A DNA stretch of 64,000 bases from Botryococcus braunii (taxonomy: Eukaryota > Chlorophyta > Trebouxiophyceae). The stretch is from contig KV908534.1 in the NCBI GenBank assembly GCA_002005505.1, positions 231,934 to 295,933 on the forward strand, given 5' to 3'. The position numbers and the translations under genes were made by a program. Shown here in pieces: positions 324 through 58,434 of this stretch (positions are counted from its first letter, which is position 1; each line of letters opens with the position of its first letter). A model generated the notes under the pieces. It was not told the origin of the DNA. It made no database searches and was given only the letters and a program-made list of their open reading frames with translations.

Positions 324-1023
324 TATAAGAGGTTGTGGGCAGTGGCGTATCCTGTAAGCAAGCAGATAGGTCGTAAGTTCGTGCCTCTCTAGCTACAGTC
401 CTCGACGACTGTCTGCTCTTTAGACACATGCAATTGCATGAACAAGACTGGCATCCTTATGTGCCCAATATCTTTCCAAACCAGTTCCGTTACACGTTGA
501 TCTGTCAATGAGCATCTACACACGGATATGTTCCTGACGGCTGAAAGCAAGTACCTTCCTATACTCAATCAAGACTCCGTCCCTTAGCTGTTTGGGAGAC
601 TTGATTGTACACTAAGATGGTTCACTTACAAACAAGCAATCAAACATGAACACATTACCAATACACACCCTGCGTCACCGCACCTGTAAGCAAGCAGACA
701 GGTCGTAAGTTCGTGTCTCTCCAGCTACAGTCCTCGACGACTGTCTGCTCTTTAGACACATGCAACTGCATGAACAAGACTGGCATCCTTATGTGCCCAG
801 TATCTTTCCAAACCAGTTGCTCGACTATGCGGTGATCGCAGCTTTAATAGTCCTTTCACACTAACGCGTAATCTAGATCAGATTGTACCTTATGTTCGAA
901 ATCGGCCACAACCTAACGTGTCTTAAGGTACCTTATGTTCTGAATGGACCCATATCCTAATAGTGCACACCTGAAGATCACTTAAAGCACAAGGCATTCA
1001 ATAATAATGTTCAGAACTCAACA
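324..1023 (-). repeat. 5' LTR of copia M (about 700 bp)
   Basis: It matches the I-element LTR (54605-55307) throughout. It starts TGTTGAG on the minus strand at 1023. Its 3' terminus at 324 is decayed: TATAAGAGG where other copies have TGTAAAAGG. A 136 bp direct repeat occurs twice inside it, at 351-486 and 683-818. Confidence 0.9.
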
Positions 1024-1745
1024 AGTCCCTTCCAATTCCTGTGCACAATCACTTGGGCAAGAGAGCACAGTCAATCTGGTACCTGGTAACAATTGTGACA
1101 CAAGATGGCTGACAGTACACTCCCTGTCACTACTACTACAAAACAGAACAACATGAGAAGTACTTGCAGGGAGGTGAGGAGCTGCATCTCTCTTATACAT
1201 GCAATCAGCACTGATCAGGTCACAAGCAGAGGGGGATGTCTGAAACTCTCTACACACACCATGCCCATCCACAATATGGGACATGAAAGAATGGCAATAG
1301 CTAGAGAAAAAGTCGTGCAGATGCCCAACTTCATGCAATACAGGAATCCCATACTGGATGGCTGAACAATTGGAAAACATCTGAAAACAGGGCTCACACT
1401 GCTGAAAACCAAAAAGGAAAGCCAAATCAAGTTGTATTTGACTTGGTACATTGTTTCCTTAACTCAAAATGCAGCTGGAAGCAACGCTCAATGCTGTGCA
1501 CAGGTTTGCCACAATGTGCACAAGCTTGCGCAACAGTTTTAGTCGTATGGGTGCCCTTGGTGTCAGGTTGGCCTTTTGGAGTGGGGTCGGCGTCCTGGAA
1601 TGTCCTGGGATATCAGAAATTGTCACAGCATGTTTGAAATAGTCTGCCAGGCTCTTTGGATACTGGAGTGAGATGCTCTTTTGCAAATCTGCCCTGCAGC
1701 CCTGCAAAAACAAGTGAAACAACGTATCCTCAGCAAATGCCTGGG
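1024..1745 (-). pseudogene. Gypsy B: gag C-terminus and gag-pol linker
   Basis: This is the continuation of the gypsy B gag found at 9170-9891, displaced by copia A. The start reads on from V-P-Q through the gag motif FLQGCRADLQKSISLQYP. A frameshift then precedes the zinc knuckle (C-A-H-C-x4-H-x4-C). Gag ends with TGA shortly before a conserved Cys/His-rich linker (about 1020-1425) that is +1 relative to gag. The linker aligns with those of gypsy F and C through motifs such as MSHIVDGHG and CREFQTSP. It is broken at 1024 by the insertion of copia M; the protease and the rest of pol lie outside the window. Confidence 0.85.
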
Positions 1746-2437
1746 TGTTAGGTTATGGGCTTGGCGTATTCCTGTGCAGTGGCGGCACGGAGGGTGTGAG
1801 TCAAAGTTCGCTCTACTGTGTGACGAAGAGTAGAGTCTAGAACATGAACAATCAAGGACTGATTGGGCAACTTTAAGGAAACACCCGGAGTGCTTGTGAA
1901 GTCCCAAACAAGTCTATTACAATTGCTCACTTGCTCTCTCTTAACAACGGAATTCAAACTATCCTAACTGGTACGTACTCAGAAAGGATCAATCTCATTG
2001 TCCGATGATAAGATAGCCAAGCACATACACATAACACGAAATATTGAGGTCAACAAAGCCTCAAATCTCCTAATCTATTCACCATCACGTTACCTGTGCA
2101 GTGGCGGCACGGAGGGTGTGAGTCAAAGTTCGCTCTACTGTGTGACGAAGAGTAGAGTCTAGAACATGAACAATCAAGGACTGATTGGGCAACTTTAAGG
2201 AAACACCCGGAGTGCTTGTGAAGTCCCAAACAAGTGCCTTGCCTCTCCGTGCTAGCACCACTACCTTCCTGCACTAAACGTGTCTGTAACTTGCGTTATC
2301 TTTATCTTCATTCAAATTGTTCCTAACCGCTAAGTCTTTGTAGTTTCGCCCATATTAGTCATTTATTATTGTCACTGACGGAATAGCCACTATTACTCCA
2401 CTGAGGGAAAGGCATATATAACTCATCCAATATAACA
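1746..2437 (-). repeat. 3' LTR of copia A
   Basis: It is 692 bp with TG...CA ends. It contains a 143 bp direct repeat twice, at 1771-1913 and 2093-2235, with no difference seen between the copies. The polypurine tract GGCAAGGGGAAG (minus strand) abuts its start at 2438. Confidence 0.97.
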
Positions 2438-2455
2438 CTTCCCCTTGCCTTTTCC

Positions 2456-5400
2456 TCACCAGAACTTGGCAAGACCCAGTGAGTTTCTATGACCCTGAAA
2501 CACTAGTCTTACTAGAGGTTTAGTGAAGATGTCAGCCACATTTCTGGCAGACTGAATGTATTTGAAGTCAACCTGCCCCTTTGCAATAGCTTCACGTGCA
2601 AAGTGACAGCTGATTGCAATGTGCTTGGTATGTTTAGAATACACTGGATTCCTGAGGTGATTGATGCACCCTTGGTTATCACAATGTATCTTCACTATCC
2701 AGGGAAACACACCAATTTCCTCTAGGAATCCCCTCAGCCAATTAGCTTCCTTCACAACAGCACTTGCTGCCATGAATTCTGCTTCTACTGTGGAAGTAGC
2801 CACAGCAGATTGCTTTTTACTTCCCCACACAACTGCTCCTCCAAACACAGTGAGAACGAAGCCGGTGGTGGAGAAACGGTGGTCTTGATCCCCACCGTAA
2901 TCAGCATCAACATATCCCTCCAACTCTGTTTCTTTTCCACCAAGGATCAGAACAAGGTCTCGGGTTCCCTTAAGATATTTCAACACACGGATTGCTTCAT
3001 TCCAGTGTGCTGTTGTGGGTGACATCCTGTACCTCGACAGAACTCCTACAGCCTGGGATATATCAGGACGAGTGGTGTTAGCTATGTAGAGTAGTGACCC
3101 TACTAACTCACAGTATCGATGACCAGGAGGCAGAACACTCCCAGCACCAATACTATCATTCCCATCCTTTGGTGCAGGCATCTGAGACATTACAAAATCT
3201 TTTGTCATTGGGGTATCGGGCCCAACTGACTCAAGATCAAGACCAAACTTCTCCACAAGTGCATCTATCTTAGGAATGCAACTCAGGGAGATTAACCCCT
3301 TCTCTCTATCTCTCATGACTTGACAACCTAAGAAATCCTTCACTTCCCCTAGATCGTGGATGGTGAATTCTTTCTTGAGAAGCTCTTTCACTCTCTCCAC
3401 CTCTGACATGCCCTTGGATACAATCAAGAGATCATCTACATAAATTAGCACGTAGGATTTACCCCCATCTTCAGAGCATCTCACATAAACTCCAGCATCA
3501 CTCTTGCACACCTCATACCCCATGACTTCAAGTTTGTCATTAAGGGTTTTGTGCCAGGCACGTGGGGCCTGCTTTAGGCCATACAGTGCCTTTTTGAGTC
3601 GACACACGGTATTGCGATCACCATTCTCAAATCCAGGAGGTTGCGTTACATACACTTCTTCCTCCAGCTCACCATTGAGAAAGGCTGTCTTAACATCTAC
3701 CTGGTGAATCTCATAACCTTCCCTAGCAGCCACAGCTAACAAGGTTCTCCTAGCTCCATAGCCGCTGGTTGGTGCAAAGACCTCCATGACATCTACTCCA
3801 GGAATTTGTCGACAACCCTGAGCAACCAATCTTGCCTTGAATCTCAACACATTGCCATGTGCATCCATTTTCACTGAGAAAATCCAGTGAACTGGTATTA
3901 CCTTATGCCCATGAGGTCTAGGAACATATTCCATAACCTCATGGGTGTCTAATGAATTCTGCTCTTCTTGCATAGCAGCCTTCCAGTATTCCCACTGAGG
4001 AGACATCTGAGCTTCTCTTAAATTAGAGGGAACATGGATTTTACCAAATCTAACACCAGTGTGCTTCCCCTCCTCTCCCTTACCCTTGGGAGAATCGTTG
4101 GTTGCACCCTCAGAACCCACTACTCTTCCACTGACACTCGCCGCACTACAGCTAGCTTTTCTCTCAGTGGTATCAGAGCTTTCTCTCATGCTTCTCTCTC
4201 TCTTGGATTCGCACCTCGCACTGCTCAACTTGTTGCCTCGCACGCTCACATCTTCCTCCCAAACACAGGTACCTCCCGGGAAGCATCCATAGTCCGGAGG
4301 TTTCTCACATTGTCTGAGCTTCCGGTTCACCTCCACATCCACACTCTTACACATCCTCTCAAGCTCAGGCTCTAGAGGGCTCTCACAGGCAGAGGGAGAT
4401 GGGCTCTGGTCGCCCCTTTGCTTCCCCTCCCTTTCTTGACTTGTATGTCTCTGACTTCCACGTTGTGTCACAAGAGACTGTGACCTCTCATCCCTGACAT
4501 CCTTCTCCCATACACAGGTACCTCTCAGGCTGCACTTGTAATTTGGTGGTACCACACATTGTCCGTGCACCTGATTCACCTCCTCTTCTCGGCTCTCACA
4601 CAAGTACTGGGATGCTGACCCAGTACTGCTCGCACAGACATTTCTGGCTGTTTCCGAGAGAGTGGAATGACTCTTCTCAGGACTGTGGCTGTCACCACCT
4701 TCCCCTACCAGTCCACGCCACTGATGGGGAGAGCCAGATGTTTCCACACAAGTCTCACCACTGACATGAAGCTCATTCACTGGACAGGACCCACCCGTGC
4801 AACTCAGCTCCCTGGGACCATTTGCAGTCATGATTGTGGCTGCCCCCCTCTCATCACTAACATGAAAATCAGGGCTCTCAGACTGGCACCCATCTATCTG
4901 CACTTCCCCTGGTCCCTGTGACTGTGTGTCACTTTCTGTTAGCCCCACTTTGTCTCTGCTCTCTCCCACCTCCTGTGACAGCAGGAGTTCTCTTGCAAGT
5001 GTTCGTTGCTCATGCCTCTGGGCTCTTGTTAGCCCATCAGCAGCCAAATTGGAATTTTCCAGGCTGGTCGGTCTGAGAGACTCTTGAGCTCGCATCATTT
5101 GTTGCTGTAGTCCAGAGTCCGAATGAGTGCCGCGGGCCAGGTCCAGAGCTGCTTCGATGGTCCTTCGGATCTCCGCGGGAGCAGTGGATCTCTGGGGGTC
5201 AGGCTCGGGCTCAGCCTTCCCAGAGGGTCCTGGACATTCTGAGTCTGTGTCTTCCTGGGAAACGTGTGGATGCACTGTCTCAACTGATGAGTCCTGGATC
5301 TCTGCCTCACTGTCGTCTCCACAGGATACCTTAACTGGCTCTGGGTGCTGTTTGGTAGTGCTGGTTTCAGAGGGAACAGGGGACAGAAATTCCTCAGACT

Positions 5401-7855
5401 GAGCAGGAGTCACACTAAGACCAACACGAGAGGCCCCTCTGAGATGCTCCACAAAGATGACATCTCTGCTCTCTCGCCATATACCCCCACCCATGTATAT
5501 CCGATAGGCTTTGGAGGAGGCTGAATAACCGGTGAGCATTCCTGGCACAGTTTTTGGTGCAAAGACTGGCCTCTGGACATCTGGGATATGCACATATACA
5601 AGGCAACCCCATGTGCGCAGGAGTGAGACATCAGGCTTATATCCCCAGAACAATTCAAAGGGGGTAAGGTCCCTGCCTGTGCTTGGGCCCATGTTAAGCA
5701 GGGTGCATGCTGTCTCCAGGGCTTCTTTCCAGAGGGTGGGACTGGCAGCAGCAAAGCTCAGGATAGTCCGGGTTCTTTCCTTCAGGGTTCGGTTGGCTCG
5801 TTCAGCTGCTCCATTCTGCTGTGGGGTGTACGGGGCAGAGGTCTCCAGTTTAGTCCCCTGGGAGGCACAGAACTCCTTGAACCGGGCATTAACAAATTCA
5901 GTTCCTCTGTCACATCTGACACACTTCACAGTGGTTTTTCGTTGCGTCTGCCAGTAAACAAGTAAGTCCCTGACAGCTGCACTGATGGTGTCTTTGGACT
6001 TTACTGGAATAACTGCTTTCCACTGAGAGGCTTCATCCAGTACAGTAACCCACAAACGTTCACCAGTAATGGCTGCAGGTGTAATAGGACCCACAGTATC
6101 TATGTGTACTCGATCCAGAGGTTCCAAGGCAGGTCTGGTACTGATTCCGAAAGAGGGTCTGGCAGTCTTTCCTTCAATACACGCTTCACAGTGTACCGGG
6201 CAATCAGTGCAGGGAGAGAGGGAGGTGTCAATCCCAGTCACCAGGTTCTCCTTAGCAAGACGCTGCATCCACGTTTCTCCAGGGTGTCCCATTCTGCTAT
6301 GCCACAAGTAACGTTTGGCACAGCTGTGTGATAAGGTACTGGATTTTAGCTGTTTGGTTGCACTGGCTGCATGCTTTGATGTGCTGGTTCCTCTCACTGC
6401 AACTACACTATGAATGTAGTACAGTCCCATCTCTGCAGTGACCTGAGCTCTCCAGTGGTTTGGTCCACTGACATACGAAAAGGCACCCACATTGTCTGTT
6501 TGGAATACTGCACCATCCCTAAGGGCAGCAGATACTGACAGGATGTTGGTGGTAGCTGAAGGGACACACTGCACATGATGGATCCAGAGGGGAATGCGTT
6601 GCGGGCTCAAAATGTAGACTGACCCAGATGCAATAATACACCCAGTGGCATCAGAGGTGGCCAAGTGCAGGGGAATTGGTTTGGCATGGATGATAGGGTT
6701 ATGCAGCAATGCCACGTCATTTACTAGGTGGACCGAGGCCCCACTGTCAACCAGCCAGGAGTGCTGCAGGGGTTTACGGATCGTACTGTCCAGGACATTG
6801 TGAGATATTGTGTACAGCATACCTTCAGGAGGAGGTGGAGGTGGAGCAGGAGGCTGAAACCAAGCAGGGAAGGCATCTGCACCATGATGGGCCAGTTGGG
6901 CTACTGGGGGATGGTGTCCACCCATAGATGGCTGGCCCTGAGGCCACATGCCTTGCAGCTGTTGGACAGCTGCCACCACGTTCCTCTGTGTCTCCTCGTC
7001 CCTGCGCCTCTTTCTGCAGTCTCTCCAATAATGGCCCTTTTTATTGCAGTAGTTGCAAACTCCCTTGGAATCAGACTGTCCGGTTGAAGGCGAAGGACTG
7101 GCTCCACTGAATGCTCCAGGGGTGCTGACTCTGTTGCTGCCCTGAGGAACAGCCAAAACTCGTGGCTGACGTGGGGCAGTCTCATCAAACCCCAGAGCAA
7201 CGGCTGTGGTCCTCAGCAGGTCTGCCAGCTTGTTGAGTGGAGTCCCTGCTGCTGGTTACAGGCTGCCTGTCTCCTTGGCTGCTTCAGGTAGACCCTGCAC
7301 AATTTGGGTAGCTACAAAGCTATCCAGAAGAGGATGATTATTCCTCTGAAGACATGCCTTCAGATTCAGCATGCGACTCACATATTGGGAAATGGTCTCG
7401 TCGTGCTTCATCCCCTGACTCATCTCCAACAGCCAGTCCATGTTGGCTTGGAGATTATAACCCCCAATGAACTTCCTACAGATATATTCATATGCAACAT
7501 ATGCAGAGGATAAATCAGATAATTCCCCGTGCCACTCTTCGGGTACAGATTCATACAGCAACAGCAGTGCTGCAGCATCATGCGTGGTCCCAGGCATGTC
7601 CTCAAGTACTGCAGGCAGTGATCCCTTGGCCTCATTTGCTGCAAGGTACGCATTCTTCCAAATCATAATGTTGTGTCCCTTTTCTTTTAGCTTGATATGT
7701 ACCTTCACAAGTGTAGGAATCACCTTTGGCAACTCATCACCTTCTCCCCTGGATGTGCTGGGAGTGCAAGGCTCTCTCACAGGTGTTGAGGTAGTGGTCT
7801 CACTCACAGACGCAGAGGTTCCACTAGATGACTGACTCTTCTTCTTAGAAGTCAT
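2456..7855 (-). pseudogene. Copia A gag-pol polyprotein, one in-frame stop
   Basis: Ty1/copia polyprotein of about 1800 codons. The start chosen is the ATG at 7855 (M-T-S-K-K-K). Order on the minus strand: gag of UBN2/copia type; in-frame TAA at 7256-7258, where sister J has a Ser/Thr pair; zinc knuckle CNYCNKKGHYWRDC near 7040; protease VDSGAS near 6745; integrase HHCC near 6180-6300 followed by the catalytic D, D, E (HIDTVGP, CDRGTEF, PQQNGAAE); a long variable linker carrying two copies of a Cys motif (QC-x3-P-x-Y-x-C ... GTCVWE); RT with YVDDLL near 3430; RNase H with DADYGGD and CDNQGC. The stop truncates gag to 199 residues. Apart from it the frame is open for 5.4 kb, so this copy has been disabled only recently. 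Confidence 0.93.
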
Positions 7856-8472: not shown

Positions 8473-9164
8473 TGTTAGGTTATGGGCTTGGCGTATTCCT
8501 GTGCAGTGGCGGCACGGAGGGTGTGAGTCAAAGTTCGCTCTACTGTGTGACGAAGAGTAGAGTCTAGAACATGAACAATCAAGGACTGATTGGGCAACTT
8601 TAAGGAAACACCCGGAGTGCTTGTGAAGTCCCAAACAAGTCTATTACAATTGCTCACTTGCTCTCTCTTAACAACGGAATTCAAACTATCCTAACTGGTA
8701 CGTACTCAGAAAGGATCAATCTCATTGTCCGATGATAAGATAGCCAAGCACATACACATAACACGAAATATTGAGGTCAACAAAGCCTCAAATCTCCTAA
8801 TCTATTCACCATCACGTTACCTGTGCAGTGGCGGCACGGAGGGTGTGAGTCAAAGTTCGCTCTACTGTGTGACGAAGAGTAGAGTCTAGAACATGAACAA
8901 TCAAGGACTGATTGGGCAACTTTAAGGAAACACCCGGAGTGCTTGTGAAGTCCCAAACAAGTGCCTTGCCTCTCCGTGCTAGCACCACTACCTTCCTGCA
9001 CTAAACGTGTCTGTAACTTGCGTTATCTTTATCTTCATTCAAATTGTTCCTAACCGCTAAGTCTTTGTAGTTTCGCCCATATTAGTCATTTATTATTGTC
9101 ACTGACGGAATAGCCACTATTACTCCACTGAGGGAAAGGCATATATAACTCATCCAATATAACA
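8473..9164 (-). repeat. 5' LTR of copia A
   Basis: It is 692 bp, matching 1746-2437. The internal 143 bp repeats are at 8498-8640 and 8820-8962. The first copy met in the transcription direction (8820-8962) is followed by a donor-like GTAACG. Confidence 0.97.
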
Positions 9165-9169
9165 CTGGG

Positions 9170-10333: not shown

Positions 10334-11021
10334 TGAAAGGTTACGGGCATTCGGCATCACCTGTACACAAGCAGACAGGTCGTAAGTGTCTCTACAGCTA
10401 GAGTCCTTGACGACTATCTGCTATTAGACACAGCACTAAATGAACAAGACTAGCATCATTACGTGCCCAGCATCTTTAAATTCTAGTTCGTTACATGAAG
10501 GTCTGTCAATGAGCTAACCCTCCTCGGATAAGACTCTTAACGGCTACGAGCAAGTACCTTCCTATACTCAATCCAACCTCTTTCTCTTAGATGATCTGAG
10601 AGGTTGGATTGTACACTCAGAAGGTTCACTTAAACTGCAGCAACCACACATGAACACAATAACACTAAATACCATGCGTCATCGCACCTGTACGCAAGCA
10701 GACAGGTCGTAAGTGTCTCTCCAGCTACAATCCTTGACGACTGTCTGCTATTAGACACATGCACTAAATGAACAAGACGAGTATCCTTACGTGCCCAGCA
10801 TCTTTCCATTCCAGATGCTCGCATGTGCGATAATCGCTGCTTTAATAGTCCTCTTCACACAAACGTGTGATCTCAACCTGATTGTACCTTATGTTCGAAA
10901 ACGTCCACACTCTACCGTGTCTGAAGGTACTTTATGTCTCAATGGACCCATATTGTAATAGTGTACATGTGAAGATCACCTAAAGCACAAGACATTCATT
11001 AATAATGTTCACAACTCAACA
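10334..11021 (-). repeat. 3' LTR of copia N (worn copy of the H family)
   Basis: It is similar along its length to the 703 bp LTR of H/I but clearly more diverged and about 688 bp long. Both internal direct-repeat copies and the CAG|GTGCG edge are recognisable. It starts TGTTGAG (minus strand) at 11021. Confidence 0.85.
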
Positions 11022-11075
11022 CTTCCCATTGCCTGCATGCTTTATGTGTATCTTCTTAAATCTAGTGATCAACGA
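11022..11075 (-). pseudogene. Copia N: polypurine tract and last codons of pol
   Basis: The minus strand aligns with the end of the I element (54545-54604): the terminal L-G-L-R-R-Y-T codons and stop, the spacer GCATGCAGGCAA, then a purine tract GGGAAG against the LTR. The match stops at about 11075, where a JmjC exon begins. The rest of N is missing. Confidence 0.7.
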
Positions 11076-22912: not shown

Positions 22913-24109
22913 TGTAAAAGGTTATGGGCAGTGGCGTATCCTGTAAGCAAGCAGACAGGTCGTAAGTTCGTGCCTCTCCAGCTACAGTCCTTGACGACTG
23001 TCTGCTCTTTTAGACACATGCAACTGCATGAACAAGACTGGCATCCTTATGTGCCCAGTATGAAACAAAGGGAGACGTGTATGCAAGTTTAATAATAAGA
23101 GATACTAGGGTTTAAGGAAGGGGTGACACCGCGAGACAGTAAACGTGACGCCGATTCCGCTTACAATACGCAGCTCCTCCTCACGCAGGCGATTCCGAGT
23201 CTCCAATAAACAATATGGCCAACGCCAATACAATATAATATGCAACAGATATATCCAGGCCCCAAAGATAAGTGTGTCTCTCGAAGTGTGTGTCCAACTT
23301 GTGGTGAACCCGGCTACATCGCCCTTCTATGTGATGCTCTCGCGAGCACCACGAGAAGGATGACGAGAGGGCATCCTTTTGGACATTTCATGAACATCCT
23401 ATATTGTGAAGCTTCTCGTAGTACGACGTGCGTGAAGACACATGCGCACACATGCAGGCGTGCACGTAATTCGAAAGACCTGCACATAATTCGAAAGGCG
23501 AGCCGCATGAGGTACGCAGACGCGGCACCGCACGCGTCACCTCACTACACAGTATCTTTCCAAACCAGTTCCGTTACATGTTGATCTGTCAATGAGCATC
23601 TACACACGGATAAGCTCCTGACGGCTGAAAGCAAGTACCTTCCTATACTCAATCAAGACTCCGTCCCTTAGCTGTTTGGGAGACTTGATTGTCCACTAAG
23701 ATGGTTCACTTACAAACAAGCAATCAAACATGAATACATTACCAATACACATCCTGCGTCACCGCACCTGTAAGCAAGCAGACAGGTCGTAAGTTCGTGC
23801 CTCTCCAGCTACAGTCCTTGACGACTGTCTGCTCTTTTAGACACATGCACCTGCATGAACAAGACTGGCATCCTTATGTGCCCAGTATCTTTCCAAACCA
23901 GTTGCTAGACTATGCGGTGATCGCAGCTTTAATAGTCCTTTCACGCTAACGCGTAATCTAAATCAGATTGTACCTTATGTTCGAAATAGACCTCATCCGA
24001 ACGTGTCTTGAGGTACCTTATGTGGATAGTGGACCCGTATACTAATAATGTACATTTGAAGATCACCTAAAGCACAAGGCATTCTATAATGTATGTTCAC
24101 AACTCAACA
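22913..24109 (-). repeat. 5' LTR of copia H, split by a solo LTR
   Basis: Without the 494 bp extra sequence at 23061-23554 it is 703 bp, the same length as the I LTR. TG...CA ends. It carries both copies of the internal direct repeat; the inserted sequence lies inside one of them. Confidence 0.92.
23061..23549. repeat. Solo LTR of an unidentified element (489 bp)
   Basis: The insertion starts TGAAAC and ends CTACA and is flanked by the 5 bp duplication CAGTA (23056-23060 and 23550-23554). This is what remains when an LTR retrotransposon is lost by recombination between its LTRs. On the minus strand it would start TGTAGTG, like the gypsy LTRs here. No other copy is present in the window. Confidence 0.7.
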
Positions 24110-28382: not shown

Positions 28383-29111
28383 TGTTATAATAGTGACTGA
28401 ACATTTTGGTGCCTTTCCCTCAGAAGAGTAATAGTGGCCAGATTAGCTCCAATTACCAGTGAGACCACTTATTAAAATGAGTAATAGGTGGCAGAACCTA
28501 GGAGTTCTGCCAGAACCAATCTAGACCAATTGCACGTTAATAAGGGAGGATGAGGTAATCAGACACGGTTTGCTCGAAAGGATATATGCTCCTGGCTCAA
28601 AGGGTTGAGGCACTTGATTGGGACATCAAAAGCACTTCGGGTGTTTGCTACTTCACTGTTGCCAGTCAAGTCATCTCATTCACAGTCGACACTGCTTGTT
28701 ACTCGACACACAACAAGAGTGTCGCCGGGCTAAACACCCTCGTGCCGGGTCATACAGGTAAACTGCTGTTAGGACATCAAATGCACAAGAACAATGGATT
28801 AGGAAAGGGTCTAGATAATGTGTAATAGAAAGGTGCTACTGCTTAGCTCATCGGACATCGGTAATGCAGACTATCAGTAACTTCGTAGATAGAGTAGTTT
28901 GAATTGCTGAGTGATAAGAGAGAGCAATAAGCATTGTAAGACTTGATTGGGACATCAAAAGCACTTCGGGTGTTTGCTACTTCACTGTTGCCAGTCAAGT
29001 CATCTCATTCACAGTCGACACTGCTTGTTACTCGACACACAACAAGAGTGTCGCCGGGCTAAACACCCTCGTGCCGGGTCATACAGGGAACGCCGAACTC
29101 AGAAGTTTACA
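28383..29111 (+). repeat. 5' LTR of copia D (729 bp)
   Basis: Starts TGTTATAATAG and ends AGTTTACA. A 147 bp direct repeat occurs twice, at 28612-28758 and 28941-29087. The first copy is followed by GTAAAC, the second by GAACGCC. Confidence 0.97.
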
Positions 29112-45408: not shown

Positions 45409-45706
45409 TGTAACAGGAATAGTCGCGTGTTATAGGAAAATGACCGGACCACGAGGATTTGGACCTCCATAAAGGTCCCTTCGTGAGTTATGTTCCTCCA
45501 CGCCAAGAAGTGGCTACTTCACGCGCCAAGGGAGTGACCCTTACTTGACAAGGCGCATTGGCGATGGAGACAGGGACACACTTAGAACAGGATAGAAGAA
45601 GGCTTTGGCAGAGGAAGGACCGGGCCGGACTGGACGGGTACTGAGGTGGAGCCCAAACAACTTGTAACCATTGTTTTCGCATCCTTTGGCCGTTTCTACT
45701 GTATCA
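45409..45706 (+). repeat. 5' LTR of gypsy K
   Basis: Starts TGTAACAGG and ends CTGTATCA. Followed after one base by the primer-binding site TGGTATCGGCGAG. It is nine bases shorter than the 3' LTR, largely through shorter G/C runs. Confidence 0.96.
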
Positions 45707-51978: not shown

Positions 51979-52285
51979 TGTAACAGGAATAGTCGCGTGT
52001 TATAGGAAAATGACCGGACCACGAGGATTTGGACCTCCATAAAGGTCCCTTCGTGAGTTATGTTCCTCCACGCCAAGAAGTGGCTACTTCACGCGCCAAG
52101 GGAGTGACCCTTACTTGACAAGGCGCATTGGCGATGGAGACAGGGACACACTTAGAACAGGATAGAAGAAGGCTTTGGCAGAGGAAGGACCGGGGCCCGG
52201 ACTGGGACGGGGTACTGAGGGTGGGAGCCCCAAACAACTTGTAACCATTGTTTTCGCATCCTTTGGGCCCGTTTCTACTGTATCA
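51979..52285 (+). repeat. 3' LTR of gypsy K (307 bp)
   Basis: As the 5' LTR, but with extra G or C in several runs between 52190 and 52270. Confidence 0.96.
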
Positions 52286-53330: not shown

Positions 53331-54057
53331 TGTTATAATAGTGATGAACATTTTGGTGCCTTTCCCTCAGAAGAGTAATAGTGGCCAGATTAGCTCCAAT
53401 TACCAGTGAGACCACTTATTAAAATGAGTAATAGGTGGCAGAACCTAGGAGTTCTGCCAGAACCAATCTAGACCAATTGCACGTTAATAAGGGAGGATGA
53501 GGTAATCAGACACGGTTTGCTCGAAAGGATATATGCTCCTGGCTCAAAGGGTTGAGGCACTTGATTGGGACATCAAAAGCACTTCGGGTGTTTGCTACTT
53601 CACTGTTGCCAGTCAAGTCATCTCATTCACAGTCGACATTGCTTGTTACTCGACACACAACAAGAGTGTCGCCGGGCTAAACACCCTCGTGCCGGGTCAT
53701 ACAGGTAAACTGCTGTTAGGACATCAATGCACAAGAACAATGGATTAGGAAAGGGTCTAGATAATGTGTAATAGAAAGGTGCTACTGCTTAGCTCATCGG
53801 ACATCGGTAATGCAGACTATCAGTAACTTCGTAGATAGAGTAGTTTGAATTGCTGAGTGATAAGAGAGAGCAATAAGCATTGTAAGACTTGATTGGGACA
53901 TCAAAAGCACTTCGGGTGTTTGCTACTTCACTGTTGCCAGTCAAGTCATCTCATTCACAGTCGACACTGCTTGTTACTCGACACACAACAAGAGTGTCGC
54001 CGGGCTAAACACCCTCGTGCCGGGTCATACAGGGAACGCCGAACTCAGAAGTTTACA
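53331..54057 (+). repeat. 3' LTR of copia D (727 bp)
   Basis: Two bases shorter than the 5' LTR and otherwise nearly identical. The two 147 bp internal repeats are again present. Confidence 0.97.
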
Positions 54058-54604: not shown

Positions 54605-55307
54605 TGTTGAGTTGTGAACATACATTATAGAATGCCTTGTGCTTTAGGTGATCTTCAAATGTACATTATTAGGATACGGGTCCACTATCCACATAAGGTA
54701 CCTCAAGACACGTTCGGATGAGGTCTATTTCGAACATAAGGTACAATCTGATTTAGATTACGCGTTAGCGTGAAAGGACTATTAAAGCTGCGATCACCGC
54801 ATAGTCGAGCAACTGGTTTGGAAAGATACTGGGCACATAAGGATGCCAGTCTTGTTCATGCAGTTGCATGTGTCTAAAAGAGCAGACAGTCGTCAAGGAC
54901 TGTAGCTGGAGAGGCACGAACTTACGACCTGTCTGCTTGCTTACAGGTGCGGTGACGCAGGATGTGTATTGGTAATGTGTTCATGTTTGATTGCTTGTTT
55001 GTAAGTGAACCATCTTAGTGGACAATCAAGTCTCCCAAACAGCTAAGGGACGGAGTCTTGATTGAGTATAGGAAGGTACTTGCTTTCAGCCGTCAGGAGC
55101 TTATCCGTGTGTAGATGCTCATTGACAGATCAACATGTAACGGAACTGGTTTGGAAAGATACTGGGCACATAAGGATGCCAGTCTTGTTCATGCAGTTGC
55201 ATGTGTCTAAAAGAGCAGACAGTCGTCAAGGACTGTAGCTGGAGAGGCACGAACTTACGACCTGTCTGCTTGCTTACAGGATACGCCACTGCCCATAACC
55301 TTTTACA
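54605..55307 (+). repeat. 3' LTR of copia I (703 bp)
   Basis: Preceded by the polypurine tract GGCAAGGGGAAG; starts TGTTGAG and ends TTTTACA. 137 bp direct repeats at 54811-54947 and 55144-55280. The first copy is followed by GTGCGG, the second by GATACGCC. Confidence 0.96.
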
Positions 55308-57742: not shown

Positions 57743-58434
57743 TGTTGTATTGGATGAGTTATTTATGCCTTTCCCTCAGTGGAGTAATAGTGGCTATTCC
57801 ATCAGTGACAATAATAAATGACTAATATGGGCGAAACTACACAGACTTAGCGGTTAGGAACAATTTGAATGAAGATAAAGATAACGCAAGTTACAGACAC
57901 GTTTAGTGCAGGAAGGTAGTGGTGCTAGCACGGAGAGGCAAGGCACTTGTTTGGGACTTCACAAGCACTCCGGGTGTTTCCTTAAAGTTGCCCAATCAGT
58001 CCTTGATTGTTCATGTTCTAGACTCTACTCTTCGTCACACAGTAGAGCGAACTTTGACTCACACCCTCCGTGCCGCCACTGCACAGGTAACGTGATGGTG
58101 AATAGATTGGGAGATTTGAGGCTTTGTTGACCTTAATATTTCGTGTTATGTGTATGTGCTTGGCTATCTTATCATCGGACAATGAGATTGATCCTTTCTG
58201 AGTACGTACCAGTGAGGGTAGTTTGAATTCCGTTGTTACGAGAGAGCAAGTGAGCAATTGTAATAGACTTGTTTGGGACTTCACAAGCACTCCGGGTGTT
58301 TCCTTAAAGTTGCCCAATCAGTCCTTGATTGTTCATGTTCTAGACTCTACTCTTCGTCACACAGTAGAGCGAACTTTGACTCACACCCTCCGTGCCGCCA
58401 CTGCACAGGAATACGCCAAGCCCATAACCTAACA
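57743..58434 (+). repeat. 5' LTR of copia J (692 bp)
   Basis: Same length as the copia A LTRs with a few substitutions. 143 bp repeats at 57945-58087 and 58267-58409. Confidence 0.96.

Follow-up and report, generated by a model that had tools for sequence, protein, structure and literature searches.

Several Ty1/copia retrotransposons in the genome of the green alga Botryococcus braunii have long terminal repeats (LTRs) that hold the same module twice, and this raises the question of why the two copies within one LTR are identical when the families that carry them have diverged. The LTRs studied lie in a stretch of 64,000 nucleotides (nt) of contig KV908534.1 (assembly GCA_002005505.1, positions 231,934 to 295,933 of the forward strand; hereafter the window), with a G+C content of 49.7%. 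Very probably, these are Ty1/copia elements with one or more leader exons inside the LTR, in which the second module (copy 2) would be rebuilt in each cycle from the spliced leader that contains the first (copy 1).

The LTRs and their modules were defined by a BLAST search of the window against itself together with exact coordinates, and the two modules of 137-147 bp per LTR that the initial annotation had described in the H, A/J and D families were borne out. In the H LTR (54605-55307) the repeats 54811-54947 and 55144-55280 measure 137 bp each, are 100% alike and lie 333 bp apart, the second stopping 27 bp short of the LTR end. In the J LTR (57743-58434) the repeats 57945-58087 and 58267-58409 are 143 bp long, 100% alike and 322 bp apart, and the second stops 25 bp short of the end; the J-type pair is also present in both LTRs of element A. 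The D LTR (28383-29111) has 147-bp modules starting at 28612 and 28941 (329 bp apart), the second ending 24 bp before the LTR does. Further families were sought in the whole genome (176,136,818 bases in 989 contigs) by a non-exhaustive sampling of reverse transcriptases within this one genome. The spacing of 322-333 bp, also given by the initial annotation, holds for H, J/A and D and fails as a general rule, since the interval between module starts was 149-166 bp in other copia families of the genome and 526 bp in the family named L090. In agreement with what had been claimed, the two modules of one young LTR were 99-100% identical, whereas identity across distinct families was 51-76% (A-D, 67%; A-L026, 74%; H-L031, 76%). 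Modules of the H group against those of the A/D group gave 51-57%, the shuffled spacers used as a control giving about 49%.

The L090 family is the strongest evidence for splicing as the presumed source of copy 2. Its copy 1 is arranged as exon-intron-exon-intron-exon, both introns being of the GT-AG type, and its copy 2 consists of the exons of copy 1 joined exactly (289 of 289 nt). Second copies were intron-free in all 23 L090-type LTRs that were read. In addition, element C232 lacks one exon in copy 2 only, in both of its LTRs, and L125 has what looks like an alternative-splice product. Exact intron removal with exon joining thus seems to be preserved here as DNA fossils. By analogy with L090, the main LTRs of the window would be divided as follows.

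54605..55307, + strand: H-type copia 3' LTR of 703 bp, with the polypurine tract AGGGGAAG just upstream and at least 39 further near-identical places in the genome.
54780..54786, + strand: TATA-like box TATTAAA (a sequence word), 31 nt 5' of H module 1.
54811..54946, + strand: H module 1, predicted leader exon, with the predicted transcription start at its first base (C|A).
54947..55279, + strand: predicted H GT-AG intron of 333 nt (GTGCGG..TTACAG), comprising spacer and module 2, by analogy with L090.
55136..55140, + strand: TGTAA, predicted polyadenylation (poly(A)) signal, 8 nt ahead of H module 2 (motif from PMC1868727).
55144..55279, + strand: H module 2, the same as module 1 in sequence (self-BLAST), predicted spliced-leader copy.
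55280..55307, + strand: remainder of the H U5 (unique 5' region), 3' of the predicted splice acceptor, by exact coordinates.
57743..58434, + strand: J LTR; module 1 57945-58086, predicted intron 58087-58408, module 2 58267-58408.
8473..9166, - strand: A 5' LTR; module 1 8821-8962, predicted intron 8499-8820, module 2 8499-8640.
1746..2439, - strand: A 3' LTR; module 1 2094-2235, predicted intron 1772-2093, module 2 1772-1913.
28383..29111, + strand: D 5' LTR; module 1 28612-28757, predicted intron 28758-29086, module 2 28941-29086, followed by GGTTATGGGCCC.
53331..54057, + strand: D 3' LTR; module 1 53559-53704, predicted intron 53705-54032, module 2 53887-54032, with a polypurine tract upstream.

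The two copies also change together. A variant shared by both LTRs of one element was taken as most likely present at integration, and 28 elements were read at both ends (17 H-type, 7 L090-type and 4 D). Among the inherited module variants, 33 distinct ones were present in both copies vs. 4 unequal sites. The H-type elements accounted for 7 of those in both copies (6 substitutions and 1 indel), with none in copy 1 only and one in copy 2 only (C15); their differences confined to one LTR, and so post-insertion, were spread about equally (copy 1, 22; copy 2, 20). In the L090-type elements both copies shared 25 distinct variants, and 3 sites were unequal (C162, C264, and C193), the missing exon of C232 being excluded from this tally, and the D elements had one variant in both copies and no unequal site. 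Selection or homogenisation during reverse transcription had been proposed to explain the identity of the copies; the latter is favored by these counts, and selection for identity is not needed.

The edges of the copies were tabulated for 12 LTRs, which were grouped by eye into six (H/L031; A/L026; D/L102; L092/L094/L103; L106/L108; and L090), with the pairs compared only partly and with A and D still alignable at 67% though in separate groups. With the right edge placed by script at the last CAG preceding a G, copy 1 ended in CAG|GT and copy 2 in CAG|G in all 12 (sense orientation), and the predicted last intron ranged from 149 to 333 nt. TGTAA stood 5-8 nt ahead of copy 2 in every tabulated LTR and was not found in the 45 nt preceding copy 1. 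A C|A step marked the start of copy 1 in 11 of them, the exception being L108, where BLAST placed the start one base early. TATA-like words occurred at -29 to -32 in 10 LTRs (in 7 as TATAAAT, TATTTAA, TATTAAA or ATATAT), and YTNAY, a weak word common by chance, lay no more than 40 nt from the acceptor in 11. Two LTRs that had not been used in making these rules were then available for comparison: L095 has CAG|GTATGC, CAG|A, TGTAAT ahead of copy 2 and C|A, and a duplicate flanking L029 on the opposite strand has CAG|GTGTGT, CAG|G, TGTAAT ahead of copy 2 and C|A. The L029 flank holds a 102-bp duplicate with its copies 149 bp apart (coordinates 2644-2894 of the locus reverse complement), and the same layout of donor, acceptor and TGTAA indicates a further family with the arrangement there. 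Donor, CAG acceptor and TGTAA were therefore present in all 14 LTRs examined at their edges, and GT and AG ends were found in the last intron of the 14 as well as in introns 1 and 2 of L090. Two features were missed by the initial annotation: the borders of the copies resemble splice sites, and copy 2 looks like the spliced form of copy 1. The suggestion in that annotation that RNA ends might coincide with module borders agrees with the C|A step ahead of copy 1 and with the TGTAA ahead of copy 2.

In the textbook LTR, which consists of U3 (unique 3' region), R (repeat) and U5, R is copied unspliced at both RNA ends. In the elements studied here, we consider it likely that a part of the LTR is absent as such from the genomic RNA and is restored through first-strand transfer, with the spliced 5' leader as its source each time the element cycles, so that splicing would be obligatory for LTR synthesis, each insertion would record the leader isoform of its parent, and the introns would persist via the 3' LTR. 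The RNA would begin at the first base of copy 1, and splicing in the 5' LTR would link the donor that closes copy 1 with the acceptor that closes copy 2, so that the spacer, the poly(A) signal and copy 2 would be lost. The resulting leader would be made up of copy 1, a short U5 and the primer-binding site, as supported by the exactly spliced copy 2 of L090. UGUAA has its peak near -17 relative to the cleavage site in the chlorophytes that have been studied, with Pyramimonas as the exception (PMC1868727), and from this the RNA 3' end is predicted about 10 nt inside copy 2. The TGTAA of the 3' LTR would end the RNA there, and the acceptor would therefore be absent and the intron would stay. In other words, a poly(A) signal within the intron would let the 5' LTR read through, and cleavage in the 3' LTR would remove the acceptor. 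Minus-strand strong-stop DNA, that is, the complementary DNA (cDNA) of U5 and copy 1, would then land on the first few nt of copy 2 and be extended through spacer, copy 1 and U3. The new LTR would therefore read U3, copy 1, spacer, spliced cDNA of copy 1, and U5. Since copy 2 would hardly be present in the genomic RNA and would be rebuilt per cycle, the copies would stay identical while the families diverge.

Several points weigh against this proposal. The raw BLAST edges meet the script-set edge in 8 of the 12 tabulated LTRs and extend 2-15 bases past it in D, L102, L108, and L090. The TATA-like words of L026, L031, and L102 are weaker and were added after the sequences had been seen, A and L090 have no such word at that distance, and no YTNAY lies within the last 40 nt of the D intron. 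The H, A, and D LTRs have no extra intron, and splicing in them is suggested by the conserved edges, by analogy with L090. Several of the 25 L090 variants are adjacent gaps or changes and may represent a single event. As for the 4 unequal inherited sites, they would be given by divergence of the two LTRs of the parent; a few are expected, though this is not proven, because the new copy 1 would derive from the parent 3' LTR and copy 2 from the parent 5' LTR. At about 10 nt, the landing site is in competition with copy 1, which offers a full match. Finally, 5 of the 20 sampled regions had no duplicate (L093, L096, L098, L100, and L107); among these, L098 is a one-module A-type LTR, and L093 and L096 belong to a family without the layout.

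The number of modules must be considered with respect to an ordinary tandem duplication within the LTR, kept alike by reverse-transcriptase slippage or by DNA recombination between modules. Genome-wide, the H type showed at least 462 exact module|spacer junctions vs. at least 62 one-module LTRs, both figures being exact-match counts and hence lower bounds, with a three-module LTR counted twice in the former. One-module copies, which had been raised as a possible majority, are thus not the prevailing form of the H type. Variation in module number, with these 62 and with three-module LTRs in at least two places among the matches listed (100 junctions), is as a tandem duplication would have it, and so is the presence of one-module LTRs at 5' and 3' ends and in the A family (L098). 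One-module LTRs occurred at both ends of elements with a shared target duplication (C3, AAGTC; C4, ATATC; C8, AACAC; C20, AAAAG), and 23 of them sit behind a polypurine tract, and so at the 3' end. Mixed elements were of both kinds. C63 (duplication GAAAC) has a one-module 5' LTR and a two-module 3' LTR, as have C39, in which both LTRs were read and the target duplication is unconfirmed, and, by coordinates alone, C16 and C373. The converse, two modules at 5' and one at 3', was found by coordinates alone in C26, C28, C111, C185, and C364, and C10 (duplication ACATC) has three modules at 5' and two at 3'; the ambiguous pairs C210, C251, and C384 were excluded. A 5'-end bias of one-module LTRs was dropped as proof of splicing, given that they are found at both ends and both mixed kinds exist. 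Wrong landings or unspliced leaders would yield one- and three-module LTRs, and slippage or module recombination also can; their presence at either end does not discriminate between the explanations, which likewise counts against our proposal. What speaks against tandem duplication is that slippage cannot drop two introns from copy 2, yet this is the state of 23 of 23 L090-type LTRs, that inherited variants lie mostly in both copies (33 vs. 4) though slippage-type products are a minority of LTRs, and that GT, AG and TGTAA mark the borders of the copies in all 14 LTRs examined there. We therefore regard it as quite improbable.

Even less credit can be given to selection on sequence or structure, for instance on a packaging or dimerisation RNA, as keeping the copies identical with no copying per cycle. 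The modules do fold into hairpins (single-sequence prediction, without a shuffled control), but they diverge about as fast as U3 and spacer (A vs. L026: U3, 70%; module, 74%; spacer, 56%), variants unique to a single element among the 17 of the H type are already shared by the two copies in each of its LTRs, and an Rfam scan of the window gave no family at gathering score. That copy 1 of L090 gained its introns only after the duplication is hardly believable, since, although intron gain occurs in algae, copy 1 exons and copy 2 vary in concert (the 25 distinct variants in both), C232 lacks an exon in copy 2 only, and L125 has its apparent alternative-splice product.

The arrangement is not general among the copia families of this genome. 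The L015/L093/L096 family (LTR start TGTTGGCAAAGACATC) has no module-length internal duplicate in about 1.26 kb from the LTR start (L093 and L096). At the LTR start of a family of the L015 type, locus L025 has a perfect 124-bp direct repeat at 3228-3474 (3228-3351 and 3351-3474); this tandem duplicate does not fit the layout. A shorter H-type group (L061-L064, L067, L068, L073, L074, and L077-L080), with LTRs about 4.1-4.5 kb apart, has an altered U5 end, yet two near-identical modules are retained. The window contains three further LTRs with modules.

326..1029, - strand: older H-subfamily LTR; module 1 684-818, predicted intron 352-683, module 2 352-486; modules 96% identical.
10338..11027, - strand: old related LTR, outside the edge table; donor-like ACAG|GTGCGA with the intron start at 10687, acceptor-like ACAG (ACAG|GTGATG) ending near 10361; modules about 88% identical.
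22913..24109, - strand: H-type 5' LTR (self-BLAST), its module 2 interrupted by an insertion at 23062-23549.

This insertion is 488 bp long, has TG..CA termini and, as judged by eye, a 5-bp duplication (TACTG), and resembles a solo LTR from a different element. D (28383-54057) is a single element with the target duplication TGAAG on both sides, placed within the reverse-transcriptase open reading frame (ORF) of an H-type element, and it spans 25.7 kb because other retroelements lie inside it, one of them with 300-bp repeats at 45409-45706 and 51979-52285.

Splicing appears to be part of LTR formation in these elements. If this is true, it would explain how an intron can survive the passage of the element through RNA, how a poly(A) signal close to the promoter is bypassed by lying inside the intron, and how intra-LTR repeats stay identical across diverged families. 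The DNA copies would be a natural recorder of past splicing of the parent RNA, exon skipping included, and intra-LTR repeats of other genomes could be reinterpreted likewise.

With respect to known systems, the elements agree with Ty1/copia in the order of domains, the target duplications and the polypurine tract. The polyprotein of A (ORF 2456-7156, minus strand) has rve (346-445) upstream of RVT_2 (1073-1317), and GAG-pre-integrase, Pol_BBD and SH3-like domains are found besides an integrase preceding RVT_2. Target duplications are of 5 bp (C6, AGCCG; C3, L036/L037, AAGTC; C63, GAAAC; C10, ACATC; D, TGAAG), and AGGGGAAG stands ahead of the 3' LTRs. Directly after the 5' LTRs comes GGTTATGGGCCC, which may match an internal part of initiator tRNA-Met (it resembles the complement of the anticodon region); no tRNA genes were found in the window by ARAGORN in bacterial mode. 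In H- and A-type elements an inverted repeat spans the junction of LTR and primer site, its arms being the 5' LTR end (GCCCATAACC..ACA) and the GGTTATGGGCCC that comes after it, e.g., at 8473-8500 of the minus strand in A. The relatives were mostly environmental proteins, the nearest named ones by E-value belonging to Micractinium, a green alga, while Tetradesmus and Haematococcus also ranked high; in viral contigs, the two stretches that matched a pattern encoded no relatives. Unlike in Ty1/copia, the LTRs here hold at least one predicted GT-AG intron and a spliced copy of their own leader, and we know of no copia element described with both. In retroviruses, cDNA of spliced RNA can enter DNA via strand transfer as a side reaction yielding defective copies, whereas in the present elements a part of the LTR seems to be templated by the spliced leader as a rule. 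To our knowledge, splicing in foamy viruses is directed to internal acceptors, and their LTR has neither an acceptor nor a second leader copy; no spumavirus-type genes were found in the two proteins scanned, which have copia-type domains. An LTR containing a spliced copy of its own leader did not turn up in the accessible portions of the open-licence full-text literature, and an engineered vector with a leader intron is a different arrangement (PMC5542766). In foamy viruses, U1 at the 5' LTR donor upstream of the poly(A) signal suppresses 5' LTR polyadenylation (PMC3694450). Here too a donor-like CAG|GT lies upstream of TGTAA (14 of 14 LTRs, sequence only), and the same U1-type logic may by analogy apply; it is the nearest described parallel found, and no membership is claimed.
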